The position numbers and the translations under genes were made by a program. Below the pieces are notes generated by a model. The model was not told the DNA's origin. It did no database searches and was given only the letters and a program-made list of their open reading frames with translations. DNA of 64,000 nucleotides from Sphingobium sp. 66-54. Lineage in GTDB: Bacteria > Pseudomonadota > Alphaproteobacteria > Sphingomonadales > Sphingomonadaceae. This document shows positions 4,969-20,247 of this stretch, in pieces (position 1 is the first letter of the stretch; the number at the start of each line of letters is the position of its first letter). The stretch covers positions 62,001 through 126,000 of the forward strand of contig MKWI01000009.1 in NCBI GenBank assembly GCA_001899715.1. The letters run 5' to 3'.

Positions 4969-5082
4969 TAGCGCGTATCATGGTGAGGACAGGGGCGGTC
5001 AGGGAATGGCCCCTGTTTCCGCCGTCTGATGGCAGGTGACGATCTGAACCATCATTGCTTTCGGTTACAAGGGCTGACCAGA

Positions 5083-5805: not shown

Positions 5806-5968
5806 TCTCCGGGCGGGCGGTCCCAGTTCTGGGGTCGGTGAAATAGCGTTCCAGGTCGCCGGCGACTTCTTCCTCGATGCCGGCGTCGGGTGCCTGCGCC
5901 CAGACGGTAGCGGGCATGACGAGTGGCAGACAGAGCGCATAGGCTGCGCGGTATTTCTTGATGGACAT
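5705..5968 (-). CDS. Small putative secreted protein, 87 aa
   Basis: From ATG 5968 (preceded by GGGGGAAC) the product has an N-terminal signal peptide: MSIKKYRAAYALCLPLVMPA then a VWAQA-type cleavage site. The mature part (APDAGIEEEVAGDLERYFTDP...) is short and unrecognised. Its last ~34 codons overlap the 3' end of the convergent methyltransferase gene on the other strand, which is unusual; the original stop may have been lost or the gene truncated. Function unknown. Confidence 0.5.
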   Translation of the reverse strand: MSIKKYRAAYALCLPLVMPATVWAQAPDAGIEEEVAGDLERYFTDPRTGTARPEIREVPLYAGGWPARRYAYHPGHFHLTAFEPHRR

Positions 5969-6299
5969 GGTTCCCCCAACTCCGGAAGCGATATCGCCCC
6001 GTTCTCCCGGGGGCGCATTAGAAGCGGCAGCGCACAGGCCAAGTTCATTACGGTTCTGTAACGGAGCGAGGGATGTTACATTTTTAATTTTACTATTATT
6101 TTTCATAAAGTTATGAATAATTTTGAAGATCCTGACTCACCTTTGCCCTGTCATTCGGCAACTTGACCCCCTCCTATCTCTCGCGCAGTCTTTCGGACTG
6201 TGCCTTACCGTTTACAGAGATAATGGCAGTCCATATCCCGACGCGGCACCGCCGCGGCATCCATGCGCCTGAAGGCACGACACTGAGGGATAAACAGGT
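5969..6299. other. Intergenic region between divergent genes
   Basis: About 330 bases holding the 5' flanks of the secreted-protein gene and the lipoprotein gene. It includes an AT-rich patch around 6075-6125 likely to contain promoter elements, but no specific -35/-10 pair can be assigned with confidence. No gene seen. Confidence 0.5.
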
Positions 6300-7529
6300 T
6301 TGAAAACGGCGTTGCCTACACTACTACTGGTCTTGCTGTTGGCGGGCTGTGCGCCTTCGACAACCCGCAATACGCCACAGATGCGCGCATATGAACTCAG
6401 TCTGGCCACCGGTGAGGCCGGGCAATATGCGGCATGGCATGGCGGTCCGAATGATGGCTCATCCATCTATATCCAGCGGGTGGACGGCGATGGCCGGTTG
6501 AGCGGCAAGCCTTTCCGCGTCAGCGACGGCAAGCGACTGGCCTATGAGCCGGACCTGATCTTCGGGGAGAACCAGCTCATCACCGCATGGTATGAGAAAA
6601 CGCCTGACACAGGCCGATTGTCCGCGCGCATGGCGGGGTTCGACCTGCACGGTCGACTGCTGTGGACGACGCCCCTGACCGACGAAACCTTGCAGACGAG
6701 GAACCCGGTCGTGCGGCGGATCGGAAAGGACGTGCATGTCGCCTGGATCCAGCAATCGGCAACCAACAGGAAGAGCGAGGCAACCGTGTGGTATCGGCGC
6801 TTTTCGCAAGCAGGAGTGCCGGAAACGCTACCCCGCAGGATCGGCCGCGCCAGTTGGGATACATGGAATCTCAACGCGATGGTCTACGGCAAACGCTTCA
6901 TCGTTACCTATGACGCAGCGGAGACTACAGCCGCTCATGAATTGCACATGATCGACATCACCCCGGATGATGTACGGCATCGTCTGCTCAGCTTGGACGA
7001 TGGGCATCCTTCCCTTTATCCCGACCTTCAGGTCAACGAGGCGGGCCAGGCCGCACTTACCTGGTTCGATCAGAGGGACGGTAATGAAGAAATCTATCTG
7101 ATCGTCGCCCCTTTTGAATTACTTGGCACAGACAACATGCCCGCCGCCAGGAGGATAACGAACGATAGAAGCGCTTCCATCGGCGCCTATGTTGCCTGGA
7201 ACGGGGCGATCCTCGGTCTGGCCTGGAGCGACAGCCCTTATGGATCGCGTGAAATCTTCATCGAAACATTTGACAGGGTGGGGCACTCACTTGGTCCCAT
7301 GCGGGCCATCAGCGCCAGCAAAGGGCAAGCTTCCGTTCCTTCCATTCGACCAAGCGCTGCGGGCTTCCTCGTGGCGTGGAACGACTATACCGCTCAGAAG
7401 GGAGACGCGCACGGAACCGGCGCCTCGTCCGTAGCTCAGTTCAAATGGGTGCCGGCCTCTCATGAGGATCCCGGTTCCCGTCCCGGCGCGCGAGCGGCCC
7501 CATCCCGTTCGGGCAGCCCGGTTCCATGA
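6300..7529 (+). CDS. Putative lipoprotein, beta-propeller-like, 409 aa
   Basis: Begins MKTALPTLLLVLLLAGC: a type II signal peptide with lipobox LAGC at residues 14-17, so the protein is lipidated and outer-membrane or periplasm facing. The mature part repeats a pattern of ~45-55 residues with tryptophan-rich turns (VAWIQQS, LTWFDQRDGNEEIYL, LAWSDSPYGSREIFIE, VAWNDYT), as in sialidase/BNR- or PQQ-like beta-propellers. The start is TTG 6300, with 'gaggg' about 10 nt upstream. The last ~25 residues are Arg/Pro/Ser-rich and may be a read-through into the adjacent degraded region. No enzyme family recognised. Confidence 0.7.
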   Translation: MKTALPTLLLVLLLAGCAPSTTRNTPQMRAYELSLATGEAGQYAAWHGGPNDGSSIYIQRVDGDGRLSGKPFRVSDGKRLAYEPDLIFGENQLITAWYEKTPDTGRLSARMAGFDLHGRLLWTTPLTDETLQTRNPVVRRIGKDVHVAWIQQSATNRKSEATVWYRRFSQAGVPETLPRRIGRASWDTWNLNAMVYGKRFIVTYDAAETTAAHELHMIDITPDDVRHRLLSLDDGHPSLYPDLQVNEAGQAALTWFDQRDGNEEIYLIVAPFELLGTDNMPAARRITNDRSASIGAYVAWNGAILGLAWSDSPYGSREIFIETFDRVGHSLGPMRAISASKGQASVPSIRPSAAGFLVAWNDYTAQKGDAHGTGASSVAQFKWVPASHEDPGSRPGARAAPSRSGSPVP

Positions 7530-7639: not shown

Positions 7640-8600
7640 TTGCGTGGTCCCGTGGTCCTTGGCGCAAAGAAGATCCATTCGTCATCGCTCTGAGCGATCA
7701 GCCCCAAGGTCCAAGCGCAATGGTATGCGGGAACGAGTTCTTCACGCGAGGACTCGGGATGGTCCATACGCCGTCAATGACCTCTTCGCTTCGCGCACGG
7801 ACGACTTCCGAAATCCGCACTGCGGTGAGCAACCAAAGCAGCATGCCGCGCTGGACCCAGCGTGGCTCGTGGATCAGCGCTTTCAAGAACCATTCAATTT
7901 CCTGCAGGCTCAGCTTTCGTGATTGCGCCGTCTCGGGATAGCGGAGATCGCCGAGGCGCCGCGACGGATCGCTTTCCAGCCCGACCTCCAGCCCCCGCAA
8001 GGAGGCGGTCCAGCCGAAGAATGCCTTCAGCTCGGCCGCCAGGCGGTCGGCGCGCACCTTCGCAATCTTACTCTTCGCCTCGACGCGTTTGATCAGATCA
8101 GTTTCAGTCACATCGTAAATGCTGCGTTTGGCCAGCTTCGGCGCGATATCGCGCTTATAGATGGCGAGCTTGTCCTTGATCGTGCGTGGCTTGTTCGGCC
8201 TTTTGGCCCGCAACGAGCGTCACTCTCGGACTGCAATCATGTAAAGATCATGCGCCTTGGCGACCGTCATGCTGGCGCCTATCTCCTCGGCTCGCTTCGC
8301 CTCACGGGAATCAACGCCGGCCTCGACCTGATCGTTCAGCTTTGTAGCCCAGGCGCGCGCATCCGCCATGGTGTAGGCAGGAAACTGACCCAACGTCAGC
8401 CGTATAAGCGCGCCACTGCCCGCCAGCCGCCGTTCGTATTTCCAGACCTTCTTGCCGCTCGGCAGAAGCTCGCTCATTAGTCCCGGCGTACGGGCATCGC
8501 GAAGCTTGCCATTGCCAGCACGTCGATCGACGCGGGGGTAAAGGAGGCACTCCTGACCATTGCCGACTCCCTGGTCGGCTCCCGGGAGGCATAAAATCAT
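7640..8600 (-). pseudogene. P4-type tyrosine integrase remnant
   Basis: A broken P4/DUF4102-type integrase. The arm-binding domain is at 8600-8223 (LPSGKKVWKYERRLAG, LTLGQFPAYTMADARAWA). An in-frame TGA at 8220-8222 follows 'MIAVRE', and the same frame then continues with the core-binding domain and first catalytic region (KRSIYDVTETDLIK, RGMLLWLLTAVRISEV) to a second stop after GPWG near 7698. Two bases out of frame the sequence resumes as LIAQSDDEWIF and soon departs from the family. The HxxR and Tyr boxes are absent, so it is inactive. It reads away from the attL copy of the tRNA-Gln repeat, the usual place for an island integrase, suggesting the DNA to the left is an older island at the same tRNA. 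Confidence 0.85.
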
Positions 8601-8729
8601 GAGACAAATCGTGAGACAATTGCTGTCCAAGCCGGTCCAACTGGGACTAACCCGGTCTACCTGCACCATACCAGCGATCTCAAAACTTCTCCCCGGATTT
8701 CAGCTTCCTGGAGCCGAAGCACAAGGGTC

Positions 8730-8782
8730 TGCTGGCTGGGGCGGGAGGATTCGAACCTCCGCATGGCGGTACCAAAAACCGC
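8730..8782. repeat. attL of the satellite (tRNA-Gln 3' fragment)
   Basis: A 53-bp sequence identical to 19133-19185. It covers the CCA end, T-arm and anticodon arm of tRNA-Gln, then diverges at 8783 (catggg) from the tRNA (tgcctt). This is the partial copy left at the distal end by site-specific integration into the tRNA 3' end. Confidence 0.92.
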
Positions 8783-9034
8783 CATGGGCTGGCCTCAAAG
8801 GCCGGTTTCGTTGCGGAACGGCACAGTTATCCACAAGCAGAAATCAATAGCTTACGAGGATTTTGCGGAACGGCATCGCCCCCAGTCCAGCCATGAAAAT
8901 GCCCCCGATCCGGCAGCAACCGGAGCGAGGGCTAAGGATTGGTCCGCTTCTAAACTGACCGTGTCGGGGCTTAGCACAGGCGGCCACATTCGCAAACCGA
9001 TCCTATCGTTGCGGTTTTCGCCGGAAGGTGCCGC
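8783..9034. other. Satellite left arm: candidate integrase arm sites and DnaA box
   Basis: Non-coding 252-bp region between attL and the first satellite gene. It holds two direct copies of TGCGGAACG (8812-8820 and 8864-8872) and a perfect DnaA-box consensus TTATCCACA (8827-8835). The same motif set occurs next to attR (19090-19122), which suggests integrase arm-type sites and/or a replication-initiator region brought together around attP in the circular form. A GGCCTCAAAGGCC hairpin lies at ~8791-8803. Confidence 0.5.
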
Positions 9035-10147
9035 ATGAGCCGCCGCAAGAATAAGCCCCTGCGCAACGGCCGTAACCCGACGACACGCTTTGTCCGTCTC
9101 GACCATAGCGTTCTCAAGAGTCCCGCTTATCGCTCGCTCAGCCTTGCCGCGCGGGCGCTGCTGGTCGAGCTGACCATGATGGAGAATGGCGAGAATAACG
9201 GCTCGCTCTATCTGTCTGTTGACGACGCATCGGCTCGGCTGGGCACGTCCGATCCGCGTGTTGCCATGGGGGCCTTTGATGAGTTGGAGGCGCGTGGCTT
9301 CATTGCCATGACCAAGGACGCCTTGTTCGCCGTGAAGGCGTCCCACAAGAGCCGCGCACGCTGCTGGCGGCTCACATGGCAGGCGACCGATGGCAAGGCC
9401 CCGACGAATGACTGGCGAGACGATTGGGAAGCCCGTCAGCCGGTGGCAGGAACCAAGGAACGCAAGCGCATGGAACGGGGCCTCAAGGCGCTGAAGAACT
9501 ATCGTCGCGCCCTGGACGAAAACAGAATGCCGGTTGAGGATTCCACAACGCTGGAACCCCTCCGTGTGGATAGTGGGGGAGTAGCGGTTGAGAAAACCAC
9601 AACCGGTTTAACGGAAAACTGCGCTTCTCCGGCATCTGCGAGCGTTGTGGAATCCTCATACTATACAGCTGTTACCATGGGTACAGGGGCCGACACTGGC
9701 ATTTCCTCATGGGCAAACGCTGGTGCGCCGGCAGCCGCTGGCCCTCCCAACAGCGCAGCGGATGACGGCGCAGGGCACGGCGCTGTCGGCATGCATCGGG
9801 CATGCGAGGATTGCGGTTCGGCCTTCACCATCGACCGACCTGATCGAGCATATCCGCGCCGGTTCTGTTCGGAAACCTGTCGCAAACGGGCCAAACTGCG
9901 GGCACGATCGACGTCCACCGTTGGTGGGCATGCGAGCCCGCCGGAACCGGAAGGCACACCTGATGACTTCTTCAGCCAGCGGCTTGGCACGTTCTGGCGA
10001 TCATCGGATCGAACAGCAAAAGCGGCTCTGGCGTCCCACACAGGCATGACGGAGGCCGAACTGTCCGCAGCGGCAGAAAGGCGCGGCTTCATCCCTCCTA
10101 TCAAGCGGGCGGTTATCCTCTGTGAGCTGAGGGAAGTGGCCGCATGA
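9035..10147 (+). CDS. HTH protein with C-terminal zinc finger (satellite replication/regulatory protein)
   Basis: First satellite gene, 370 aa, ATG 9035. Residues ~15-120 form a winged-HTH-like domain of the kind seen in phage replication-initiator-type proteins (RFVRLDHSVLKSPAYRSLSL, ALLVELTMMENG, VDDASARLGTSD, AFDELEARGFI). A variable linker of ~130 residues follows, then a Cys4-type zinc finger (CEDCGSAF... FCSETCRKRAKLR, residues ~252-285) and a charged C-terminal helical part. It probably binds DNA at the element's origin or promoter. No helicase/primase motif is visible, so replication likely depends on host or helper functions (inference). Confidence 0.65.
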   Translation: MSRRKNKPLRNGRNPTTRFVRLDHSVLKSPAYRSLSLAARALLVELTMMENGENNGSLYLSVDDASARLGTSDPRVAMGAFDELEARGFIAMTKDALFAVKASHKSRARCWRLTWQATDGKAPTNDWRDDWEARQPVAGTKERKRMERGLKALKNYRRALDENRMPVEDSTTLEPLRVDSGGVAVEKTTTGLTENCASPASASVVESSYYTAVTMGTGADTGISSWANAGAPAAAGPPNSAADDGAGHGAVGMHRACEDCGSAFTIDRPDRAYPRRFCSETCRKRAKLRARSTSTVGGHASPPEPEGTPDDFFSQRLGTFWRSSDRTAKAALASHTGMTEAELSAAAERRGFIPPIKRAVILCELREVAA

Positions 10148-10192
10148 TGACCGCGCAACGATCAGACCGAAACCATTCAGCGGAGAACAAGC

Positions 10193-10345
10193 ATGGATGA
10201 CGATGACAAGTTTTGGCGGGCGCCTCCCGGCCACGATTGGAGCGAGGCGAGCAAGATGCTTCGAGCGCTCAGGCCTGAACGCCCATCGCGTAAGCCCATT
10301 GGCTGCAAGCGGGCCTGGCGAGCCTACAGGCCGCGTCATGGCTGA
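10193..10345 (+). CDS. Small satellite protein, 50 aa
   Basis: From ATG 10193, after ggagaac at good spacing, the product starts MDDDDKFWRAPPGHDWSEAS and ends in a strongly basic tail (RPSRKPIGCKRAWRAYRPRHG). Its TGA (10343-10345) overlaps the HNH gene's ATG (10338) in the sequence ATGGCTGA, so it is translationally coupled to it. Too short for a typical small terminase; function unknown. Its position directly before HNH-TerL makes a packaging role conceivable (inference). Confidence 0.6.
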   Translation: MDDDDKFWRAPPGHDWSEASKMLRALRPERPSRKPIGCKRAWRAYRPRHG

Positions 10346-10739
10346 TTGGCCCTACAACACGGCGGCATGGCAGCGGCTGCGCCGTGCGCATCTGGATCAG
10401 TTCCCGATGTGCGAGGACTGTGGGGCGATCGGGCGTATGGTGCTGGCGAACACGGTGGACCATCGCGTGCCAATCAGCGCGGGCGGCGATCCCTTCCCCG
10501 GTCATGACGGGTTGGCGAGCTACTGCCCTGCCTGCCACGGTGCCAAGACGGCGCGAGGCGTGGAGGCGGGAGCGGTGCGCACACGCAAGCCCCGCCGTGG
10601 CTGCGATGCCAGTGGCCAGCCTCTCGACCCCGCCCACCAATGGCACGGAAAATCTCTCAGGGCTGAGCGCACCATATCGTCCTCGAAGTCGAGTTTAGAG
10701 TTAGTTGGGCTTGAGGAAGGGCGATATTTCAATGGGTAA
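10338..10739 (+). CDS. HNH endonuclease of the packaging module
   Basis: A 133-residue HNH nuclease from ATG 10338. Visible motifs are CEDCGAIGRMVLANTVDHRV (first CxxC and the DH of the HNH core), PISAGGDPF and YCPACHGAKTARGV (second CxxC, H/N region). In HK97-type phages an HNH protein next to TerL is needed for cos cleavage and packaging. The gene overlaps the upstream small gene and its stop overlaps the TerL start by 8 nt (ATGGGTAA), giving a tightly coupled cassette. Confidence 0.85.
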   Translation: MADWPYNTAAWQRLRRAHLDQFPMCEDCGAIGRMVLANTVDHRVPISAGGDPFPGHDGLASYCPACHGAKTARGVEAGAVRTRKPRRGCDASGQPLDPAHQWHGKSLRAERTISSSKSSLELVGLEEGRYFNG

Positions 10740-12384
10740 GCGTGGGCCGGGCGCAGGACGGATGATGCGGGTTGCCGAGCAGGGGCAGCGGCCCGTTGCC
10801 GACCTGTTCAACCTCAATCCGCTCTCGTCCGAGCCTCACCCGTGGACGCGGCCGGACATGTCACGGGCGGAACGCGTCATCGCCTTCGTGGAGAGCCTGC
10901 CGATCACGAAGGGCTATGGTGCCGGCGAGCCGGTTGCCCTGCTGCCTTTCCAGCGGGAATGGCTGGAAGCGGTCTATGCAACCGATGCCGAGGGCAATCG
11001 CCGCGTGCGCACCGGCCTGCTCAGCGTGGCGCGTGGTCAGGGAAAGACCGTGCTGGCGGCGATGCTCTGCCTGGCGCACCTGGTCGGCCCGGAGTGCGAG
11101 CAGCGTGGCGAATGCTATTCGGCCGCCGCGACCCGTGACCAGTCGGCGCTTATCTTCGCGGAGATGGAGGCGATCATTGCCGAGACGCCGTGGATCGCCG
11201 CCCGCGTCAATGTCCAGCGGTTCCACAAGGTGATTGAGGACAGCATCACCGGCTCGAAATATCGGGCGCTGGCCAGCGACGGCGCCAGTGTCCACGGCCT
11301 CGCCTCCAGCTTCGTGATCTGCGACGAGTTGGCCCAGTGGAAGGGCCGCGAGCTGTTCGACGTGCTGCGCACCTCCATGGGCAAGCGCCGCGAGCCGCTG
11401 ATGCTCACCATCGGCACGCAATCACCCTATGCCGAGAACATCATGAGCGAGCTGGTGGACTATGCCGGCCGCATCGAGAGCGGCGAGATCGAAGATCCGT
11501 CATTCCACGGCGCGATCTACGCGGCGGATGAGGATGCTGCCCTGGACGATCCCGCCGCCTGGGCGGCCGCTAATCCGGCGCTGGGCGTGTTCGTCAATGA
11601 GCAGACCATTGGCGAGGAAGCGCAACGCGCGATCCGCATGCCGACGTTTGAGCCGGCCTTTCGCAACCTGCACCTCAACCAGCGTGTGGATGCCGAGCCG
11701 AAAGCGATCAATCCGGCCGAGTGGAATGCCTGCGGTGAGTCTGTCGACCCGGCGGCCCTGCGCGGCCGGCCCTGCTATGCCGGTCTTGACCTTTCCAGCG
11801 TGCGCGACCTCTCGGCGCTGGTGCTCTACTTCCCCGAGGATGACGGCGCCGTGCTGCCCTATTTCTGGTGCCCTAAGGCCGGGCTGGCGCTCAAGGAGGA
11901 GCAGGACCGCGTCCCCTATCGCACCTGGGCGTCTCAGGGGTATATCGAGCCGACGCCGGGCGCGGCGATCGACAAGGCGTATATCGCCAGTCGGCTCGCC
12001 ATGGTCTGTCAGTTATTCGATGTGCGGGCGATTGCCTATGACCGTTGGGGCATGGCTGAGTTGCGCGCCATCCTCGATCGCGAAGGCATAAGCGAGCTGC
12101 CGCTGAAAGACTGGGGACAGGGATTCGCCAGCATGGGGCCGGCGGTCAATGCGTTTGAGACGGCGCTGATCGAGCGCCGATTGCGCCACGGTATGCACCC
12201 GGTGCTGCGCTGGAATGCCAGCAACCTGATCTTCGACACCGATCCGGCCGGCGGCCGCAAGCCGAGCAAGTCCCGCTCGATCGACCGGATCGACGGCATG
12301 GCAGCGCTCATCATGGCGTGCGGACTGGCGGCGAAAGATGAGGGGCCGGAAGTCTATCGGGGCGAAGGGCTGATGTGGCTATAG
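10732..12384 (+). CDS. Phage terminase large subunit (TerL)
   Basis: A 550-residue terminase of HK97/Terminase_1 type. The ATPase Walker A is SVARGQGKT (residues ~98-106), Walker B is VICDE (~195-199) followed by LAQWKGRELFDVL, and a motor coupling motif TIGTQSP follows. The C-terminal nuclease starts at YAGLDLSSVRDLSAL and has further acidic residues in IDGMAALIMA. It drives packaging of DNA into the capsid through the portal encoded downstream. Start ATG 10732 lies inside the end of the HNH gene, after ggaagg. Full length for the family; no frameshift. No small terminase (TerS) is recognisable nearby. Confidence 0.93.
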   Translation: MGKRGPGAGRMMRVAEQGQRPVADLFNLNPLSSEPHPWTRPDMSRAERVIAFVESLPITKGYGAGEPVALLPFQREWLEAVYATDAEGNRRVRTGLLSVARGQGKTVLAAMLCLAHLVGPECEQRGECYSAAATRDQSALIFAEMEAIIAETPWIAARVNVQRFHKVIEDSITGSKYRALASDGASVHGLASSFVICDELAQWKGRELFDVLRTSMGKRREPLMLTIGTQSPYAENIMSELVDYAGRIESGEIEDPSFHGAIYAADEDAALDDPAAWAAANPALGVFVNEQTIGEEAQRAIRMPTFEPAFRNLHLNQRVDAEPKAINPAEWNACGESVDPAALRGRPCYAGLDLSSVRDLSALVLYFPEDDGAVLPYFWCPKAGLALKEEQDRVPYRTWASQGYIEPTPGAAIDKAYIASRLAMVCQLFDVRAIAYDRWGMAELRAILDREGISELPLKDWGQGFASMGPAVNAFETALIERRLRHGMHPVLRWNASNLIFDTDPAGGRKPSKSRSIDRIDGMAALIMACGLAAKDEGPEVYRGEGLMWL

Positions 12385-13122
12385 GAGATCTGGAAGGTCG
12401 TATATTTTTGGATATTTACCTGCAAACATATCAACGATGCTTCTAACATGAATGAAATCTGGCAAAGTTGTATCAGATATATTAATCTTATTTCCAACAG
12501 ATGGATATAACTGAAATATACCTATCTTAGATAAGTTAATTAATCTCTTAAACGATAAATTTGGTTGGTATATTGATACCGTAAAAATTCTACCAATTAA
12601 GAAAACAATTATGCATCCGTTCAAAATATTATTATTGTCATATAAATAATCTCTCCGCCACCCTCGATCAATTACGGAATTAGTTCTTCCTAAATATATC
12701 TTCCAATCGCTACCAATATTTTGACTTTCAGAATATTCTTTTCTGACATGGGCTGGAATAAACGATTTCCAATCAGGGATTGCGTCGATGCACATTGATG
12801 TCATTACCGCCCACTGAGAGATTGCCGAAGCTTTTTCATCGGTGATGATGATCCGATCGCCAACGATAAGAGGTTCTAGAAAAGGTTTTGCTTTAGACTG
12901 GAGTTGCGACATCCATATCGAATTGCAGGGTTTACAGACTTCCTTGAGGGTTTCCGTGCCGACCGCACCTCTCATTTTTTTCCCTGTTGCCACGCCACGC
13001 TCTATAATAATTCCTCGCGTGTCGGTTCTAATAGGGATTAATCGACGAGACCACTTAGGATGGAAATGTTCGGGGTAGGACTTTCTATGTTGACCACAAA
13101 AGGCGCACCGAATCATTACCAT
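12379..13122 (-). CDS. AT-rich cargo protein with HNH-like treble clef
   Basis: A 247-residue protein on the strand opposite to the packaging genes. The N terminus has a treble-clef/HNH-like pattern: CAFCG (residues ~6-10), PEHFHPKW with the expected histidines, then VCKPCNSIWMSQLQ and KPFLEPLIVGD. This layout recalls HNH families with CxxC, EHxxPxW and CxxCNxxWMSxLE signatures. The remaining ~160 residues are unrecognised. The gene is strikingly AT-rich (roughly 35-40% GC by eye) against GC-rich neighbours, so it was acquired separately. It shares the palindrome CTATAG as stop with TerL. Start ATG 13122 follows GGGGGC; in-frame ATG 13116 is an alternative. Candidate defence or helper-interference cargo (inference). 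Confidence 0.7.
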   Translation of the reverse strand: MVMIRCAFCGQHRKSYPEHFHPKWSRRLIPIRTDTRGIIIERGVATGKKMRGAVGTETLKEVCKPCNSIWMSQLQSKAKPFLEPLIVGDRIIITDEKASAISQWAVMTSMCIDAIPDWKSFIPAHVRKEYSESQNIGSDWKIYLGRTNSVIDRGWRRDYLYDNNNILNGCIIVFLIGRIFTVSIYQPNLSFKRLINLSKIGIFQLYPSVGNKINISDTTLPDFIHVRSIVDMFAGKYPKIYDLPDLL

Positions 13123-13148
13123 AAAAGCCCCCAATACCTCGCCTAAAA

Positions 13149-13331
13149 CTAAGCAAAACTTCGCTGAATGATTATCCGAATAGCTTCAGGTCGCGAAGGG
13201 CGCGGATCGGGCTGTTTAGCTATCCAGGCATCCAGTGCGTCAAGTTGGTTGGGCTGGAGGCGGACGCCGACAACGATGCCGGATTGTCCGGGTCGTTTTG
13301 GGCTTCTGTTAACAGAACTTGCGGCACTCAT
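13149..13331 (-). CDS. Ribbon-helix-helix repressor-like protein, 60 aa
   Basis: The C-terminal 40 residues fit a CopG/Arc-type ribbon-helix-helix: a beta strand (GIVVGVRLQPNQ), helix one (LDALDAWIAKQ) and helix two (SRPEAIRIIIQRSFA). Such proteins bind palindromic operators as dimers. Two TTCTGTTAAC-type palindromes lie around its start (13304-13317 and 13336-13349), consistent with autoregulation. It is transcribed away from the + strand capsid operon and is a good candidate for the switch protein of the satellite. Confidence 0.75.
   Translation of the reverse strand: MSAASSVNRSPKRPGQSGIVVGVRLQPNQLDALDAWIAKQPDPRPSRPEAIRIIIQRSFA
13304..13317. promoter_or_regulatory. Palindromic operator 1 (TTCTGTTAACAGAA)
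   Basis: A perfect 14-bp palindrome inside the first codons of the ribbon-helix-helix gene. A second near-identical site lies 32 bp away centre to centre, about three helical turns, so dimers would sit on the same DNA face. Confidence 0.55.
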
Positions 13332-13335
13332 TTCG

Positions 13336-13349
13336 TTCTGTTAACAAAA
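13336..13349. promoter_or_regulatory. Operator 2 (TTCTGTTAACAAAA)
   Basis: A copy of operator 1 with two changes in its right arm, immediately upstream of the ribbon-helix-helix start codon and in the divergent region leading to the + strand gene at 13420. Binding here could repress both directions. Confidence 0.55.
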
Positions 13350-13419
13350 TAGCGAGCCGAGGGGAAGTTGGAGCTTCCCACCCGGCTCTAACCTCAACCG
13401 ATCTCGGAAGGATCAGGTC

Positions 13420-13755
13420 ATGGCTACTCACGCCCCTATCACGGGCACGCCTGTGCGCGCATCCATTATCCCACCAATGCCGGCAGTTGCCGCTATCCTT
13501 GCCCGCTATGATCGGGCGAGCCTTGAAGCGTTCCTGTCCGTCGCGATCGACCTGCTCGACGCGATGGACGGCGATCCCGACGTGGAGGATGATGACCCGT
13601 CAGGCGACACACTCGATATCTCTGGCGAGGCTCCCACCGATAACGGCGCGGAAATGTACGCGATCCGGCCCGTCTATAGTGTCGATCAATCACGAGGGCC
13701 GATCAATGAGGCGGAGGCGCATCGGGAACACATGCGGGAGCTGTTGCGACATTGA
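13420..13755 (+). CDS. Hypothetical satellite protein, 111 aa
   Basis: Starts MATHAPITGTPVRASIIPPM after a strong ggaaggatcagg site. The middle has a helix ARYDRASLEAFLSVAIDLLDAMDG, then an acidic stretch (DPDVEDDDPSGD) and a C-terminal charged helix (INEAEAHREHMRELLRH). No family recognised. It is the first + strand gene after the repressor region, so it is probably the head of the capsid-module transcript. Confidence 0.65.
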   Translation: MATHAPITGTPVRASIIPPMPAVAAILARYDRASLEAFLSVAIDLLDAMDGDPDVEDDDPSGDTLDISGEAPTDNGAEMYAIRPVYSVDQSRGPINEAEAHREHMRELLRH

Positions 13756-13842
13756 GGGGGAGGGCAATCACCCTCACCCAAAGTCCTCTTGATATTTTCA
13801 AGAAGTTGGAATACCTCTTGGCAAACGCAAGAGGAAAAGACA

Positions 13843-14310
13843 ATGCCAACACCTAAACTTACCACCAAAGCGGCCTGCCGCATTGCTCGTATCGACCGCG
13901 ATCGCTTCAACGAGCATGTTGCGGCCGGCCACTTCGGCTGCGCGCCCGATACTACACCTGGTCGCGCTCGTCTGTTCGACCCGGATGATATGATCGCGCT
14001 CTATCTGTTCCGCGAGTTGATGGATGATGGCCTCAATGCGCGGAGGGCTGGCAGCATCGCTTGTGCTGTTGCGCTGGCCGCGCGCCTCAATCCGGAGGCC
14101 AAGACTATCACCTATGTGCAGGACTATTTCGGCCCTGATAGTGGCAAGGCATTTCCGACGAGCGCCGTGCCGGCTCCTGACACATGGGACACCACCTATC
14201 TGAGCGGCACGGACATCCGCAAATCTACGACCTTCAATATCCTCAAAATGCGCGCGTTGATCGCGCATTACACCGAGGAAGAGGCCTCCATCATCGGTGA
14301 GGACGACTGA
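13843..14310 (+). CDS. MerR/AlpA-like HTH regulator
   Basis: A 155-residue protein starting MPTPKLTTKAACRIARIDRD after agaggaaaag. The N-terminal ~70 residues look like a MerR-type winged HTH (TKAACRIARIDRDRFNEHV, then RARLFDPDDMIALYLFRELMDDGL), where the tail recalls excisionase/MerR proteins that read RxFxxxDxxxL. The remainder is an unrecognised helical domain (ARRAGSIACAVALAARL). It lies just upstream of the capsid genes on the same strand and could be their activator, the role AlpA plays in other satellites (inference). Confidence 0.65.
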   Translation: MPTPKLTTKAACRIARIDRDRFNEHVAAGHFGCAPDTTPGRARLFDPDDMIALYLFRELMDDGLNARRAGSIACAVALAARLNPEAKTITYVQDYFGPDSGKAFPTSAVPAPDTWDTTYLSGTDIRKSTTFNILKMRALIAHYTEEEASIIGEDD

Positions 14311-14311
14311 T

Positions 14312-14464
14312 TTGAACTCGCCTCTCCCCAAGGCGCCCGCCGCCGCGTTCGGCATTGTGGCGGAAGGGGTGCACCCCATGGGGACGTTTTGCCCACGCTG
14401 TGAAGCGTCGGTTTTCACCGCGCCGGGGGCTTTAGCTCCCGGCCAGATTGAGGATGAAGCATGA
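14312..14464 (+). CDS. Small protein with CxxC, 50 aa
   Basis: Frame from TTG 14312 (ggtgagga upstream) or ATG 14378 to TGA 14462-14464, ending PGQIEDEA. It contains a single CPRC pair (FCPRCEASVF). The stop overlaps the major capsid ATG (14461) as ATGA, matching the coupling between all following head genes, so this short gene is probably translated. Function unknown; the single CxxC could be half of a zinc site formed in a dimer. Confidence 0.45.
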   Translation: MNSPLPKAPAAAFGIVAEGVHPMGTFCPRCEASVFTAPGALAPGQIEDEA

Positions 14465-15687
14465 AAACGAGTGATCTGATCGAACAGCGGGCGGCGATCG
14501 TCGCTCGCATGAGCGCCGCCCATGAGGCGGACGACAACGGCGCATTCGAGGCGGCCGAGACCGAGCTGCGCGCGCTCGACGCCAGGCTGGAGCGCCAGCG
14601 CAAGATCGACGCGGCCGACCGCGCCGAGCTGGGCACGCCGATCAACGGCGATCACAAGCTGACCAGCGAGATCCGTAGCAAGTTCCATATCGGCCGCGCC
14701 ATTGCCGGAGCCGCCGGCCTTTCCGTCGATTGGGGCTTTGAGCGCGAGATGCAGGCCGAATTGGCGAAGCGCGCCGGCCGCGCTGCCGAGGGCGTGTTCA
14801 TCCCGACCGAGTGCTTCGAGACGCGGGCGCTCACTACCACGACCGGCGCCGAGCTGGTCCCGACCGAGCATCGCCCCGACCAGTATATCAATGCGCTGGT
14901 GGCATCGGCCAAGGTGCGGACGCTGGGCGCGACAGTACTGTCGGGCCTGACCGGCAACCTGTCGATCCCCCGCGAGACGGATAGCCCGGCCATTGGCTGG
15001 GTTGCCGAGAACACGGCCCTGACCGCCGACGACGCCGATTTTGACAGCATCACGCTCTCGCCCAAGCATGCGGGCGCGCTCTCGGAATGGTCCCGCAACA
15101 TGCTGCTCCAGGCATCGCCGGACGTGGAGGCACTGCTGCGCCGGATGCTGGCGCGCAATCTGGCGCTGGCGATCGACAAGGCGGCGATCAATGGCAGCGG
15201 CGTTGGCGCCGAGCCGCGCGGTATCCTCAATTTCGCGGGCATTGGCAATGTCGCCGTGGGCATCAATGGCGGGCCGCTGACCGGCGATCTGGCCCGCGAC
15301 CTGATCGCCGCCGTCGATATTCTCGACGCGCCCACGAACAGCCGCGCCTTCCTCTCGACCCCTGCCGTGAAAGCGGCTGCGACAAAGCTCAAGGATGGGC
15401 AAGGCAACTACATGGGTCTGCCCACCGTGTTCGCCGGGGAGCGCGCGGAGTTCTCCAACTCCGTGCCGAGCGGTCTGACCAAGGGCACCGGCACCGGCCT
15501 TTCCGCCGTGCTCTATGGCGACTGGTCCGAATTGCTGATCGGCATCTGGTCCGAGATCGACATTCTCGTGAACCCATTCGAATCGATCGCCTACAGCAAG
15601 GGCAATGTCTCCATCCGCGCGATGGCGACCGTGGACACCGCCCTCCGTCACGTCGCCAGCTTCGCGGCGATCAAGGACGCCAAATGA
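14461..15687 (+). CDS. HK97-fold major capsid protein
   Basis: A 408-residue HK97 gp5-type capsid protein. Residues 1-~65 are an alpha-helical coiled coil rich in Glu/Ala/Arg (AAIVARMSAAHEADDNGAFE), the delta scaffold domain removed by the protease after assembly. The mature part shows family signatures: GAELVPTEHRPDQYINAL, SGNLSIPRETDSPAIGWVAE, TLSPKHAGALSEWSRNML, AAINGSGVGAEPRGILNF and the C-terminal LYGDWSELLIGIWSEIDILV. Length is normal. ATG is coupled to the preceding 50-aa gene, and its TGA overlaps the protease ATG. Confidence 0.95.
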   Translation: MKTSDLIEQRAAIVARMSAAHEADDNGAFEAAETELRALDARLERQRKIDAADRAELGTPINGDHKLTSEIRSKFHIGRAIAGAAGLSVDWGFEREMQAELAKRAGRAAEGVFIPTECFETRALTTTTGAELVPTEHRPDQYINALVASAKVRTLGATVLSGLTGNLSIPRETDSPAIGWVAENTALTADDADFDSITLSPKHAGALSEWSRNMLLQASPDVEALLRRMLARNLALAIDKAAINGSGVGAEPRGILNFAGIGNVAVGINGGPLTGDLARDLIAAVDILDAPTNSRAFLSTPAVKAAATKLKDGQGNYMGLPTVFAGERAEFSNSVPSGLTKGTGTGLSAVLYGDWSELLIGIWSEIDILVNPFESIAYSKGNVSIRAMATVDTALRHVASFAAIKDAK

Positions 15688-16229
15688 GCGGCGGGGGCGA
15701 TATGGAGCGGCGGGCCTTCACCGAGGTCCGCACCGCCGGGCGGCGTATCGAGGGATATGCTGCCATCTTCGGCAGCGAGGCGGCCATGGGCGGCTTCCGC
15801 GAGCGTATCGCCCCCGGTGCCTTCCGGGGCGCGCTGGCGGGCGACGTGCTGGCGCTGCTCGACCATGATCCCGGCAAGGTGCTGGGCCGCACCCGTTCGG
15901 GCACGCTGCGGCTCACCGAGGATCGCCGGGGCCTCGCCTTCTCGCTCGACCTGCCCGACACGGCGGCCGGGCGAGACGTGCTGGCGCTGGCGCAGCGCGA
16001 TGACCTGGGCGGCATGTCGTTCGGCTTCACTGTCCCCAAGGGCGGCGAAAGCTGGAGCGGCGAAACCCGCACGCTCAACACGATCGACCTGAAAGAGATC
16101 AGCGTCGTGTCATCCTGGCCTGCCTATCCCGATACCGAGATCGCGCTGCGCAGCCGCTGCCATGAAGGCACTATCCTGCGCCGGCACCGGTCCCTCATTC
16201 TCGCGGAGGTGGCCCGTGCGATTGGCTGA
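15684..16229 (+). CDS. HK97-family prohead protease
   Basis: A 181-residue protease of the HK97 gp4/herpesvirus assemblin-like type. Signatures are the opening RRAFTEVRTAGRRIEGYAAI, AMGGFRERIAPGAF, the catalytic-histidine loop ALLDHDPGKVLGRTRSGTLRL, GLAFSLDLPDTAAGRDVL, GGMSFGF and the serine-containing strand LKEISVVSSWPAYPDTEI. It cleaves the delta domain of the capsid protein during maturation. The start ATG overlaps the capsid stop (ATGA); its end overlaps the portal start by 14 nt. Confidence 0.93.
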   Translation: MSGGGDMERRAFTEVRTAGRRIEGYAAIFGSEAAMGGFRERIAPGAFRGALAGDVLALLDHDPGKVLGRTRSGTLRLTEDRRGLAFSLDLPDTAAGRDVLALAQRDDLGGMSFGFTVPKGGESWSGETRTLNTIDLKEISVVSSWPAYPDTEIALRSRCHEGTILRRHRSLILAEVARAIG

Positions 16230-17355
16230 CCGCTTCCTGTCCCGCCTTGGCTATGAACGCCGTGCGGCGGATGATCCGAGCTGGGCCGCGCTCGCGCCCG
16301 GCATCGGCTATTATGCGGGCGTTTCGGCTCGCTATGCCGAGAATATGAGCGCGGTGCTGGCCTGCGTGAACGTGATCGCGGACAGCCTCGCGAGCATCCC
16401 GGCGCTGGTCTATCGCCGCGAGGGCGATAACCGCATCGAGGCGCTGGGCCATCCGCTGCGCCGGTTGACCGTCCATGGCGTGCATGAGGGCATGACCTGG
16501 CCCGAGTTCATCGGCCATCTGGTCGCCTCTACCCTGCTGACCGGCAATGGCCTTGCCGAGATCATCCGCGCGGGCAATGGGCAGCTCGCCGGCCTCGCCT
16601 ATATCCCCTGGGGCATGGTGACGGTCGCCGAACTGTCGAGTGGGCGGCTGGCCTATGACGTGGCGGACGGGCGCGGCCATGTGCGCCGCCTGCTGGCCGG
16701 GGAAGTCATCCACCTGCGCGACCGCACCGATGATGGCAGGATTGGCGTCTCGCGCCTCTCACGCGCGTCCAGCGCGGTTGAGGCGGTAGACCTTGCCAAT
16801 CGCCACGCACGGGCCTTCCTCGCCAACGGAGCGGCCCCGAGCGGCGTGATCGAGGTTCCGGGCGCCATGAAGCCGGATCAGCGCACGTCACTGCGCGAAA
16901 GCTTCCAGAATCGCCATGGCGGCGCGGGCAATGCCGGCTCGACACTGGTGCTGGACGGCGGCATGACCTGGAAAGGCGTCTCGCTCTCCCCCGAGGATAG
17001 CGAGCTGCTGGAAACCCGGAAGTTCGGCACGGAAGAAATGTGCCGCATCTATCAGGTGCCGCCGCCGCTGGTGCAGGACTATTCGCACAACACGTTCACC
17101 AACAGCGAGACGGCCGGGCGCTGGTTTGCCATGTTCACGCTGGCGCCCTGGGCGCGCAAGATCGAGGCCGAGTTCGCCCGGTCCGTGTTCCCCAACAACG
17201 GCCCCTATGAGTTGGAACTGGATCTGTCCGGCTTCCTGCGGGGCGACCCACAAACCCGCTGGGCGGCCCATAAAATCGCGATTGAGACGGGCGTGCTCGA
17301 TCCCGACGAGGTGCGCCAGATTGAGGGCTGGAATCCTCGGGAGGTCGCGCAATGA
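16216..17355 (+). CDS. Phage portal protein (HK97 type)
   Basis: A 379-residue portal protein forming the dodecameric DNA channel at one capsid vertex. Family features are the N-terminal VLACVNVIADSLASIPALVY, YIPWGMVTVAELSSGRLAYD, VIHLRDRTDDGRIGVSRL, and the C-terminal MCRIYQVPPPLVQDYSHNTF and QTRWAAHKIAIETGVLDPDE. GTG 16216, nine bases after ggaggt, is preferred over the upstream in-frame ATG 16162. In most HK97-like phages portal comes before protease and capsid; here it comes after both. Confidence 0.95.
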   Translation: MRLADRFLSRLGYERRAADDPSWAALAPGIGYYAGVSARYAENMSAVLACVNVIADSLASIPALVYRREGDNRIEALGHPLRRLTVHGVHEGMTWPEFIGHLVASTLLTGNGLAEIIRAGNGQLAGLAYIPWGMVTVAELSSGRLAYDVADGRGHVRRLLAGEVIHLRDRTDDGRIGVSRLSRASSAVEAVDLANRHARAFLANGAAPSGVIEVPGAMKPDQRTSLRESFQNRHGGAGNAGSTLVLDGGMTWKGVSLSPEDSELLETRKFGTEEMCRIYQVPPPLVQDYSHNTFTNSETAGRWFAMFTLAPWARKIEAEFARSVFPNNGPYELELDLSGFLRGDPQTRWAAHKIAIETGVLDPDEVRQIEGWNPREVAQ

Positions 17356-17768
17356 CGATCGAGGAAATGCGCGCCGCCACCGGCCTGCCACCCGAGGCAA
17401 CTGACGCCGAGGTGGTCGCAGCCTATGCCGCGCTGATGGAGGGGGCCGCTGCCACTGCTGGCGAACCTCTGCCCGCCTTGGTGACTTTGGACGAGGCCAA
17501 GGCTCATCTGCATCTCGACGACGACTTTGAAGATCCGCTTCTCCAGTTGATGATAGTCGCGGCCTCTGATGCTGTGCGCGACGTGGCAACCGCTTACAAT
17601 GGTGCTGGCGATGAGGCAGCCAGTTTTGGCGATACCGGCGAAGTCCCGGCACGCCTCAAACTTGCAGTTCTGACGCGCGTGGCGATCATGTTCGGCAATC
17701 GGAGCAGTCAGGAAGCCGGCGCTGGCGAACTGTCCATGCTCACGCCGCTGCGGGTGCTGGAAGTGTGA
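17352..17768 (+). CDS. Head-tail connector (gp6-like)
   Basis: A 138-residue protein with the gp6/YqbG connector pattern: VTLDEAKAHLHLDDDFEDPL, LQLMIVAASDAVRDVATAY, then a C-terminal ARLKLAVLTRVAIMFGNRS. Connectors close the portal after packaging and present the tail docking surface. For a tail-less element this is the natural interface with helper-phage tails. ATG overlaps the portal stop (ATGA). Confidence 0.85.
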   Translation: MTIEEMRAATGLPPEATDAEVVAAYAALMEGAAATAGEPLPALVTLDEAKAHLHLDDDFEDPLLQLMIVAASDAVRDVATAYNGAGDEAASFGDTGEVPARLKLAVLTRVAIMFGNRSSQEAGAGELSMLTPLRVLEV

Positions 17769-18067
17769 TGGCGGGCGCCGCCTCCTTTTTCCTCCCGATA
17801 GCCCGACTCCAGACGAAGGATGGCATCTGCGCTTATCTCGGTGACATTAGCCATGCGACCTATGATAGCTGGCAGGCAAAGGGGATAGTTCCCGGCCCTA
17901 TTCCGGGGACGACCCGCTATGATCTTCGCGCCCATGATTGCGCGATAGATCGCGTGGGCGGTCTGGCAAATGCAGAAAGGCGGTCACGCTCTGCACTGGA
18001 TGATTGGGAGGCAAGCCATGCGGCTAAGGCTCAAGGGCGTCTACAGCAACAAAAAACGCCTCTCTGA
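17768..18067 (+). CDS. Xis/AlpA-like HTH protein
   Basis: A 99-residue protein containing HATYDSWQAKGIVPGPIPG and TRYDLRAHDCAIDRVGGL, the winged-HTH pattern of small DNA-binding/excisionase-like proteins found upstream of integrases. The C-terminal ~30 residues are charged and helical. Start ATG 17768, with GTG 17765 just before it, overlaps the connector stop; its 3' end overlaps the integrase start by 50 nt. Its likely role is directing excision and/or activating satellite genes (inference). Confidence 0.75.
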   Translation: MAGAASFFLPIARLQTKDGICAYLGDISHATYDSWQAKGIVPGPIPGTTRYDLRAHDCAIDRVGGLANAERRSRSALDDWEASHAAKAQGRLQQQKTPL

Positions 18068-19085
18068 CGGCAGCTATAAAACCTACTACACCCTCCGGGG
18101 CGTTGGCGCTCTTAATCCCCTTCCTGATGACGAGGGAGAAATCTTCGCGCCCGGCACACCCGCATTCATGCGGGCATATCATGCCGCGATTGATGCCCCG
18201 CGCAAAGCCCGCGCCGCTGGCACCCTCCAGTCCATCATAGACGGCTATCAGCGCAGCCATGCTTTCACCTCGCTCGCGCCGCGAACGAAGTCGGATTATC
18301 TCAAGGCAATCATCAAGATCGAAACGGTGAAGCTGACGGAGAATACCCCGGCCTTCGCGACCTACCCCATAGAAGTCGTGGACGATCCAAAGATCAGGCT
18401 CCGCTTGTTGGACTGGCGCGACAGTATGGCCAAATCATCGCCCCGGCAGGCTGACGCGACGCTGGGCGTTCTGCGTATCATCCTTGAATGGGGGCGCGAC
18501 CGTGGGCTGCTGTCTCATAACCACGCTACTCGACCGAAAAAGGTCTACCGCGCCGACCGCTCCGATAAGCTTTGGCTGCCCAACGACCTGGCTGCCTTCC
18601 GTTCATCCGCGTCCGACGAAATGCTACTGGCGCTGGAACTCGCGCTTTGGACAGGACAACGCCAAGCCGACCTACTGAAATTGGGCTGGTCCAGTTACGA
18701 CGGCGCGCGCCTCTCATTCCGGCAGGGCAAGCGGAAACGCAAAGTCGATATGCCGGTGCCGGTAGCTTTGCGGTCCGTATTGGATGCCGCACCTCGCCGT
18801 GCCACGACCATCCTCACGACGCCAACAGGCAAGCCATGGGGACAGGTTCATTTTCAGCATCATTGGCGCAAGGCGACTCTCGCGGCGGAACTGGATGGCC
18901 TCCATTTTCACGACATTCGCGGCACTACCTGCACGATGCTGGCGCAGAAGGGCGCGACCCCTTCGGAGATCGCTGCCGTGCTCGGCTGGACCGTCACTAC
19001 AGTCAATCAGATGCTCGACACCTATCAAGCGATGACGGCGCAACTGTCGAATAATGCGGTCGCAAAACTGGAGGCAAAAGCGTGA
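18018..19085 (+). CDS. int: Tyrosine-family site-specific integrase
   Basis: A 355-residue phage integrase from ATG 18018 (ggaggca upstream). The core-binding domain is at ~70-165 (TLQSIIDGYQRSHAFTSLAP, ADATLGVLRIILEWG). The catalytic domain has all expected residues: R215 (WTGQRQADLL), basic beta-hairpin (FRQGKRKRKVDMPV), H298-x-x-R301 (HFHDIRGT), W324 (VLGWTVTT) and nucleophile Y336 (LDTYQAM). The gene ends 47 bp from attR and lies beside the intact tRNA-Gln, as expected for the integrase that made this insertion. No damage is seen. Confidence 0.95.
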   Translation: MRLRLKGVYSNKKRLSDGSYKTYYTLRGVGALNPLPDDEGEIFAPGTPAFMRAYHAAIDAPRKARAAGTLQSIIDGYQRSHAFTSLAPRTKSDYLKAIIKIETVKLTENTPAFATYPIEVVDDPKIRLRLLDWRDSMAKSSPRQADATLGVLRIILEWGRDRGLLSHNHATRPKKVYRADRSDKLWLPNDLAAFRSSASDEMLLALELALWTGQRQADLLKLGWSSYDGARLSFRQGKRKRKVDMPVPVALRSVLDAAPRRATTILTTPTGKPWGQVHFQHHWRKATLAAELDGLHFHDIRGTTCTMLAQKGATPSEIAAVLGWTVTTVNQMLDTYQAMTAQLSNNAVAKLEAKA

Positions 19086-19132
19086 AAAGTGCGGAACGAA
19101 GTGCGGAATGCCCTGTGGATAAGTCCGCTAAG
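19086..19132. promoter_or_regulatory. Satellite right arm: candidate integrase arm sites and DnaA box
   Basis: Between integrase stop and attR: TGCGGAACG (19090-19098), TGCGGAATG (19102-19110) and TGTGGATAA (19114-19122, the reverse complement of a perfect DnaA box). The same motif types lie just inside attL (8812-8872), so the two arms mirror each other around attP. Confidence 0.5.
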
Positions 19133-19185
19133 TGCTGGCTGGGGCGGGAGGATTCGAACCTCCGCATGGCGGTACCAAAAACCGC
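19133..19185. repeat. attR of the satellite
   Basis: The 53-bp repeat identical to 8730-8782, here continuous with the rest of the tRNA-Gln gene to 19210. Confidence 0.92.
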
Positions 19186-19210
19186 TGCCTTACCACTTGG
19201 CTACGCCCCA
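19136..19210 (-). tRNA. tRNA-Gln (TTG)
   Basis: Minus-strand cloverleaf beginning TGGGGCGTAGCCAAGTGG and ending CGCCCCAG-CCA (CCA encoded). The anticodon stem GCGGT/ACCGC encloses loop TTTTGGT, anticodon TTG. The T-arm is GGAGG-TTCGAAT-CCTCC. Acceptor stem TGGGGCG pairs fully with CGCCCCA. Its 3' half is the satellite attachment site and remains intact after integration. Confidence 0.95.
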
Positions 19211-19383
19211 GCATCGCGGCGCGCGGCGCCGCGAGGCGCGTCATATAGCGCCCTCGCCGCAAAAGCCAAGCGGATGGCTGCTGGCCAATGGAATGGCTGC
19301 ACCGCCGATGTCGTCGCCATCGAGGTGCCGCCACCGCTCCCGGACGGTTCCGCCGCACCTGGAAATGCTCTAGGAGGAACGCC

Positions 19384-19890
19384 ATGGCCAGTTCTCCGCA
19401 ATCGCCCGCCGCGTCGCCGCTCTTTCTGCGTGAAGAAGAGATTCGGCGCGGTATCGAATTGCTGCATTTCGGCCATGCGGCGCTGGCGCGGGCGGCCGAT
19501 GCGGTGCTGGCGCAACATGACCTCGGCCGCGCCCACCAGCGCGCGCTCTATTTCATCGGACGCCAGCCCGACATGAGCGTTTCCGCGCTGCTGCAACTTC
19601 TGGCCGTCACCAAGCAGTCTCTCGGGCGCGTTCTCGACGACCTCACCGCGCGCGGACTGGTTCAGACAAGTCCTGGCACGCGTGACCGTCGGCAGCGGCT
19701 GCTGCGACTGACAGCCGCTGGCGAGGCGATCGAAGCCGCCTTGTTCGTTGCGATGCGCGAGCGCATGGCCGCCGGCTATTCGGCTGCGGGCCAAGGCTCC
19801 GTGACCGGCTTCTGGCGCGTGCTGGAAAATCTGCTGGACGCCGAAGACCAGCGCATGGTCGCTGCGCTCCAGATCTCACAACGGCGGTGA
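19384..19890 (+). CDS. MarR-family transcriptional regulator
   Basis: A 168-residue winged-HTH regulator. ATG 19384 follows aggagga. The MarR core is visible as RRGIELLHFGHAALARAADA, GRAHQRALYFIGRQPDMSVS, LLAVTKQSLGRVLDDLTARG (recognition helix) and the wing TRDRRQRLLRLTAAGEAI. It usually acts as a dimeric repressor released by small ligands. It is the first host gene to the right of the tRNA-Gln site; no obvious target adjoins it. Confidence 0.88.
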   Translation: MASSPQSPAASPLFLREEEIRRGIELLHFGHAALARAADAVLAQHDLGRAHQRALYFIGRQPDMSVSALLQLLAVTKQSLGRVLDDLTARGLVQTSPGTRDRRQRLLRLTAAGEAIEAALFVAMRERMAAGYSAAGQGSVTGFWRVLENLLDAEDQRMVAALQISQRR

Positions 19891-20247
19891 GGCGAGGCGC
19901 CTCCAGGCACTGTGCATTCAGATGATGAGGTGACGGAGACGCAGACGACCGCAGGGCAAAATGCTGGATTTGCGCAACCCGGAGCGCAGTAGACTTTCGG
20001 TCCGTAAGCACCCGAAACGCGCAGAGCCGCCATTTGCAGGCTGTCAGGGATGAAGGCAGAGCGGATTGTGGCCCAATGGACCCGTTCGCCCTGAGCTCTT
20101 CAGAGAGGGGCATCTTCGGTCCGCAAGATACGCAGAGCACCCTTCGACAAGCACCGGGCGAAGAGGTCCGGGCGCTCACCATCCACTGCTCTTGCCTGCA
20201 TGGCGGGACACTGATCGCGCCGGGCATGGTGCCCATATTTCCAGCCG
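19891..20247. other. Intergenic region with diverged 'TTCGCCCTGAGC...' repeat
   Basis: No gene is supported. Around 20084-20165 the sequence (CGTTCGCCCTGAGCTCTTC ... CCCTTCGACAAGC) resembles a diverged copy of the inverted repeat seen at 36376-36513, a dispersed intergenic repeat. Confidence 0.5.

Follow-up and report, generated by a model that had tools for sequence, protein, structure and literature searches.

What occupies the tRNA-Gln gene of the alphaproteobacterium Sphingobium sp. 66-54, a satellite that makes its own phage heads or the residue of a deleted prophage? The question is raised by a 10.4-kb element within a 64,000-nucleotide stretch of contig MKWI01000009.1 (assembly GCA_001899715.1, positions 62,001 to 126,000; hereafter the window). 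The host genome (G000) is 3.99 Mb and the window is part of its contig 9. A first-pass annotation had reported attachment repeats and a set of head genes here and had interpreted them as a head-only satellite rather than a decayed prophage. Its observation is confirmed and its interpretation is partly supported. The element is probably a capsid-encoding phage satellite that works like the capsid-forming phage-inducible chromosomal islands (cf-PICIs), building its own heads and using the tails of a helper, a reading to which we assign a probability of about 0.8. Tail borrowing is probable because the head genes occur without recognisable tail genes, in a large family of such elements.

The boundaries and the target site can be read directly from the DNA. 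The exact 53-bp direct repeats at the two ends (Table 1) start 10,403 bp apart and are the sole direct repeat family of at least 20 nt detected in the region 8000-20000 (seed 14). The right copy spans the 3' 50 nt of tRNA-Gln(ttg), the only tRNA detected in the window. In a 5-kb stretch of another genome (G003) the repeat region is matched once (55 bp, 94.5%). On its left lies a homologue of the P4-type integrase that stands left of the element in the window (the DNA match is 462 bp from the repeat, as against 472 bp in the window), and on its right lie the tRNA and a MarR gene, as in the window. The G003 stretch is the tRNA-Gln site without the satellite, beside the same older integrase. The repeats at tRNA-Gln reported earlier are borne out, and they bound a mobile element of 10,403 bp.

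The genes between the repeats are those of a head and of its packaging machinery. HNH endonuclease, terminase large subunit (TerL), capsid, protease, portal, connector and integrase are all open frames recognised with Pfam, PHROGs and NCBIfam, and profile matches place both ATPase and nuclease domains in TerL. The head genes are full length and chained by short overlaps (capsid/protease 4 nt, protease/portal 14 nt, portal/connector 4 nt, connector/next open reading frame (ORF) 4 nt). Tail, lysis and DNA polymerase families gave no match among the element ORFs scanned with Pfam, PHROGs, NCBIfam and PADLOC. In all of this the first-pass annotation was accurate.

The element is part of a large family. 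When 150 relatives were searched with the capsid, 7 of them had matches of at least 53% identity, at 8 places, the window excluded. Of 396 Sphingomonadales genomes, 15 contain matches to the portal profile that score at least 458 bits, at 16 places in all; the next match reaches only 239 bits. With a cut-off of 450 bits the profile picks out two genomes in a class-level sample of 385 (the host genome itself and G809) and, in a phylum-level sample of 398, the host genome only. IMG/VR contributed 144 confirmed contigs, the best 80 of which lie at 52-89% portal identity. With profiles of our own making, 111 loci were mapped, namely the window, the best 80 of the 144 IMG/VR contigs, 18 stretches from other Sphingomonadales genomes and 12 further loci; most were picked by portal or capsid similarity. 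A portal above 450 bits defines a family locus and is present in 99 of the 111, the other 12 falling below. Among these loci L035 and L038 look like one element, as do L094 and L158. L031 and L032 stand outside the mapping and share contigs with L039 and L038, and L047, a capsid match that lacks a family portal, was excluded without a profile scan.

All 99 family loci are in Sphingomonadales genomes or IMG/VR contigs and the head module is common to all of them. The order HNH-TerL-capsid-protease-portal is complete in 66. It is partial in 31 (TerL-capsid-protease-portal in 10, capsid-protease-portal in 19, protease-portal in 2), mostly on cut contigs and including L103 and L161, and it deviates in two, L093 (capsid-protease-portal-HNH-TerL) and L119 (TerL-capsid-protease-portal-HNH). 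An integrase domain was seen downstream in 77 loci, where it starts 217-3229 bp past the portal (median 529 bp). In 75 of these it lies within 1.5 kb, which supports the head-only satellite of the first-pass annotation. Two loci exceed 1500 bp: in L088 ORFs without a known family lie in between, and in L162 an IS21-type insertion (11267-13547) separates portal and integrase. In several other loci the integrase is at the opposite end (L044, L084 and L087, for example). Two family copies (L039, L040) lie about 46 kb apart on contig 4 of G060; no integrase was detected with the copy beside tRNA-Gln(ctg).

The target tRNAs of the family include Gln, Glu, Arg, Ser, Tyr, Cys and Met. Of 13 family loci whose integrases were compared with that of the window, 8 show 21-28% identity and 5 no match, while the 10 aligned relatives have capsids and portals of 50-91% identity. 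Nineteen elements bounded by attachment repeats measure 8,672-13,292 bp (median 10,422; 13 of the 19 within 10,191-10,887), two of them being probably one element and the largest being L162 with its IS21 insertion. Capsid, portal, protease and TerL were compared with those of the window in 26 pairings; dN/dS was 0.08-0.40 in every one, and these four genes are under purifying selection.

The accessory genes of the family were compared in two sets. Downstream of the portals, 98 non-core ORFs form 45 clusters. PHROGs scans covered the representatives of 10 of these, the three largest among them, and a Pfam scan that of an eleventh; 14 singletons (L039, L044, L156) sit past the tRNA, in host DNA. 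The representative of one cluster, of 23 ORFs, is a head-closure (Hc1) protein. In L037 and L038 the gap between connector and integrase leaves no room for Hc1. In 18 elements bounded by attachment repeats, 67 non-core ORFs form 39 clusters. Thirty representatives were scanned together (25 of the 45 families being listed) and 10 of these representatives again singly; 7 further representatives were covered by other scans, so that coverage is complete except for L037:318-2402 and L162:7435-7902.

One alternative is that the element is an anti-phage island, in which the heads soak up helper tails, defence of the host is the benefit and spread is secondary. Some satellites are indeed costly to their helpers (PMC11389934), and the cargo gene at 12379-13134 has no assigned function. 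However, an intact integrase, the HNH gene and a TerL under selection have been kept, none of which a decoy would need. The cf-PICI EcClEDL933 was without significant effect on helper particles in the same source (PMC11389934), and a PADLOC scan of the cargo gene gave no match. We regard this alternative as quite unlikely.

Another alternative, a prophage in decay or reduced by deletion, from which the tail, lysis and replication genes have gone, is very unlikely and largely refuted already. In its favour, the head genes are of the ordinary HK97 type, a tape-measure gene is present in two family loci, and a degraded prophage with a related integrase occupies the same tRNA in G027 (L046). Against it stand the uniform size of the elements and the purifying selection described above. 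The element does not appear to be a deleted prophage because 99 loci share the head module at many tRNA genes with mostly unrelated integrases. The first-pass annotation had asked whether most relatives carry the same head genes continuous with tail genes; the outcome speaks against a prophage, the integrase domain lying within 1.5 kb of the portal in 75 of the 77 loci where both are seen and a tape-measure gene being found in 2 of the 99.

Gene order and portal phylogeny also separate the family from tailed phages. In 10 HK97-type Sphingomonadales prophage loci (L163-L172) the order is HNH-TerL-portal-protease in 10 of 10, and their portals score 180-239 bits, compared with more than 450 in the family. 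Likewise, in four phage records portal and protease precede the capsid or its unnamed neighbour. The family order of capsid-protease-portal is thus the reverse of that in the tailed phages examined. For a tree, 133 portals longer than 300 aa were reduced to 115 by dropping near-copies (>95%, equal length), leaving 82 family rows (L173 included), 26 of tailed-phage type and seven other capsid-first rows. In this quick tree, built with no bootstrap, a branch with SH-aLRT 100 separates the 82 family rows from all others, and another, with 97, sets apart the 26 of tailed-phage type. Five of the 26 (L178, L187, L190, L191, L192) showed TerL-portal-connector only, and among the seven capsid-first rows the tail check covered L193 only, from its annotation. 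The window portal falls outside the tailed-phage portals. Portal matches were obtained in 1,567 phage records, all below 60% identity, and the best among the 25 listed reaches 34.4%.

L046, the degraded prophage in G027, holds the same tRNA-Gln site and carries protease-capsid and tape-measure genes, without the head module of the window. The resemblance of its integrase and of the adjoining 100-aa ORF to those of the window element (69% and 62% identity) points to exchange of an integrase module.

A truly tail-less particle, whose heads act without helper tails and spread by lysis and uptake or by vesicles, would agree with the lack of a recognised tail gene in the window but is hardly credible, since the head-tail connector is kept and the 23 downstream family ORFs cluster under a head-closure representative, which together suggest tail attachment.

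Several observations weigh against the satellite reading. Profile scans recognised no small terminase (TerS) among the window ORFs, the one weak exception being a match of the HNH protein to phrog_4581. There was no AlpA match (PF05930) in the window ORFs scanned, where the MerR-type protein has a sub-threshold match to HTH_17 (E 0.066), and no primase match in the window, where an ORF resembling a replication initiator stands in its place. No Hc1 protein was recognised in the window, only the Ad1 connector. No cos site was identified when the 320 bp upstream of HNH were compared between the window and 66 other loci; exact shared stretches of at least 14 bases occurred only at the HNH start itself, in 3 loci. 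The two tape-measure genes, in L103 and L161, belong here as well. In L161 the gene encodes 592 aa (reverse complement 4897-6675) and occupies the place of TerL in an element of 9,540 bp bounded by attachment repeats, inside which TerL and HNH were not found. In L103 it encodes 807 aa (4508-6931) and starts at the last base of the portal gene; TerL and HNH were not found on this contig, which stops 1.6 kb upstream of the capsid, so that a TerL farther out is possible. L103 is nested inside the family tree, and its tape measure therefore looks like a later gain. These two loci are possibly working variants or remnants, and manipulation of tail length is possible.

Some of the functions not recognised in the window have matches in relatives. 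TerS are divergent proteins. In L094 a TerS candidate lies between HNH and TerL; it has weak matches to unrelated families as well. AlpA was found in L093 and L115, and L038 carries a Prim-Pol/D5 primase. A GC-rich inverted repeat lies upstream of HNH in 7 of 11 aligned rows (L041, L042, L065, L069, L071, L073, L079), the window not among them; it may be a terminator or a packaging site.

The first-pass annotation had also credited the element with its own regulators. This is upheld for the MerR-type protein, whose structure model (pLDDT 92.8) has CvkR as its top PDB match over the full length (7xn2, E 1e-5, TM 0.57/0.59), while the ribbon-helix-helix protein gave a sub-threshold match only. 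The MerR-type protein had initially been taken for a gpNu1-like TerS because this helix-turn-helix protein co-occurred with the close TerL subtype in the first loci compared. This assignment was rejected: the model matches MerR regulators, with no terminase among the best 50 of 418 PDB matches, and a viral structure library gave nothing at E <=0.001. Because the best full-length structural match is CvkR, the protein is a candidate regulator and not a small terminase.

The remaining features of the element and its left neighbour are collected in Table 1. The HNH gene is taken to start at 10338, and not at 10197 as in the longer open frame, because homologues begin there. The 370-aa protein has a poor structure model (pLDDT 58), its weak PHROG matches include a DnaD-like loader (E 0.024), and its profile recovers 12 ORFs, itself included. 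The profile of the 60-aa ribbon-helix-helix-like protein recovers 32. No Pfam match was obtained for the 100-aa ORF at 17765-18067 even at E 5. Outside the element, the P4-type integrase remnant matches PF13356 (4.6e-12) in the piece 8220-8669 and has sub-threshold integrase matches in 7698-8213. Since it lies at tRNA-Gln and has a homologue at the G003 site, two kinds of element use this tRNA.

Table 1. Features of the element and its left-hand neighbour (window coordinates)
Feature	Position	Strand	Basis
Older P4-type integrase remnant, outside the element	7698..8669	-	two frames, 8220-8669 and 7698-8213
attL, 53-bp direct repeat	8730..8782	.	repeat search
370-aa protein, N-terminal winged-helix-like region resembling a replication initiator and C-terminal zinc-finger-like region (both by eye; putative function)	9035..10147	+	weak PHROG matches
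HNH endonuclease (packaging)	10338..10739	+	PF01844 1.1e-5, phrog_2323 3.7e-24
TerL; start codon uncertain, 10705-10765	10705..12384	+	PF20441 1.9e-40, PF03354 5.2e-23, phrog_9 7.2e-139
Low-GC cargo gene, 251 aa	12379..13134	-	phrog_38451 3.4e-5, sole match; local GC 0.45-0.47
60-aa ribbon-helix-helix-like protein, candidate repressor	13149..13331	-	PF01402 E 0.11, below cut-off
Family ORF, 111 aa (ORF111)	13420..13755	+	profile recovers 34 ORFs
MerR-type regulator, 155 aa, CvkR-like fold, candidate head-operon switch	13843..14310	+	17-row alignment, structure model
55-aa ORF immediately upstream of the capsid gene	14297..14464	+	profile recovers 34 ORFs
HK97-type major capsid protein	14461..15687	+	PF05065 2.8e-39, TIGR01554 7.2e-40
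Prohead protease S78	15684..16229	+	PF04586 4.9e-42
Portal protein (HK97)	16216..17355	+	PF04860 1.8e-92 (longer frame from 16162), TIGR01537 8e-69
Head-tail connector, Ad1/gp6 type	17352..17768	+	PF05135 5.5e-9, phrog_40 2e-15, TIGR01560 1.5e-12
100-aa ORF that overlaps the integrase gene; helix-turn-helix resembling that of an excisionase, by eye only	17765..18067	+	L046 homologue 62% identical, same place
Tyrosine integrase	17970..19085	+	PF00589 4.8e-13; 69% identical to L046 integrase at tRNA-Gln
attR, identical to attL, overlapping the 3' part of tRNA-Gln	19133..19185	.	repeat and tRNA search
tRNA-Gln(ttg), integration target	19136..19210	-	tRNA search

Among the closest known systems are the cf-PICIs, which encode their own capsid, protease, portal, connector, TerL and HNH and need a helper for tails only (PMC10690885). 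They average 14 kb and have been described mainly from Enterobacteriaceae, several groups of Firmicutes, Pasteurella and Morganellaceae (PMC10803314), and their capsids form three clades (PMC11389934); a published cf-PICI capsid tree comprises 1,375 capsids (PMC13230959). The window element has all six of these genes together with an integrase, and no tail or lysis gene is recognisable in it. It differs in size (median of 10.4 kb for the elements bounded by attachment repeats, against the 14-kb average), in the lack of a recognised AlpA, primase and TerS, and in having HNH-TerL upstream of the capsid with regulators between. Enterobacterial cf-PICIs are generally capsid-first too. Because neither AlpA nor primase was recognised in the window, the element is not filed as a cf-PICI, though it would work like one. 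The literature searched, which did not extend to the primary cf-PICI descriptions, contained no paper linking cf-PICIs with Sphingomonadales or phage-inducible chromosomal islands with Sphingomonas.

The Acinetobacter schindleri plasmid NZ_CP044475.1 (L193, 45348-51228) shares the capsid-protease-portal order, HNH, TerL and connector, and its 19-kb stretch has no annotated tail gene in a PLSDB gene table that is incomplete; it differs in that HNH and TerL follow the portal, the plasmid is 132 kb and the capsid is 35% identical. On this mobilizable plasmid the head module, from capsid to head closure, adjoins the plasmid replication genes. The cf-PISP satellite-plasmids of Vibrio likewise have head genes without tail genes but are episomal with parA/repA, and their authors report none outside Vibrio (PMC13230959). 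MulchRoom and MiniFlayer of Streptomyces are satellites that encode capsid and packaging genes; they differ, by their published description, in their virulent helpers and terminal repeats, and their authors describe them as lacking significant homology to cf-PICIs (PMC10690885). The HK97-type prophages L163-L172 share HNH, TerL, HK97 portal and protease and a connector-type protein but differ in portal order and score as given above. Capsid-first or protease-before-portal modules, judged by order only, also occur in other alphaproteobacteria and other classes (L175, L180, L181, L183, L184, L189). The proposal of a new family was therefore an overstatement. Because the family is large and capsid-first modules exist in other proteobacteria, the element is better described as a new branch among systems already known.

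For the capsid-encoding satellite we infer the following life cycle. The element would reside in tRNA-Gln, held by its own repressor. Growth of a tailed helper phage would lead to excision through the satellite's integrase and then to replication. Once induced, the satellite would express capsid, protease, portal and connector together with its own HNH and TerL, which would package the 10.4-kb genome into its own, probably small, heads. These heads would take helper tails, and the helper would also lyse the cell. Satellites without Hc1 would need that of the helper, which may determine the compatible tails. In a published size model a T=3 head has a mean genome of 11.78 kbp (range 8.1-17.1; PMC7762592), which the 10.4-kb genome would fit; such a head would measure about 43 nm. 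The alternative is several genomes per larger head. A TerL-family search of the host genome gives one match, the element's own. Contig 19 of the same genome carries, at about 29,700-63,700 by eye (L214, L215), a prophage with sheath, baseplate, head, scaffold and endolysin genes, which to us looks P2-like and is a possible candidate helper.

As a tentative extension, the family may be a head-only virus lineage centred on Sphingomonadales and long apart from tailed phages, with a genome of about 10.4 kb set by a very small T=3-like HK97 capsid and with tails taken from unrelated helpers; the tape measure of L161 would hint that some members control the length of the borrowed tail. The probable satellite described here extends head-encoding satellites to common soil and water bacteria as a distinct and widespread branch. 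It also supplies a compact and uniform set of elements for direct tests of tail borrowing and small-capsid packaging. Should satellites whose heads are 70-90% identical turn out to employ different tails, the connector, together with whether Hc1 is present, would provide a natural experiment in head-tail compatibility.

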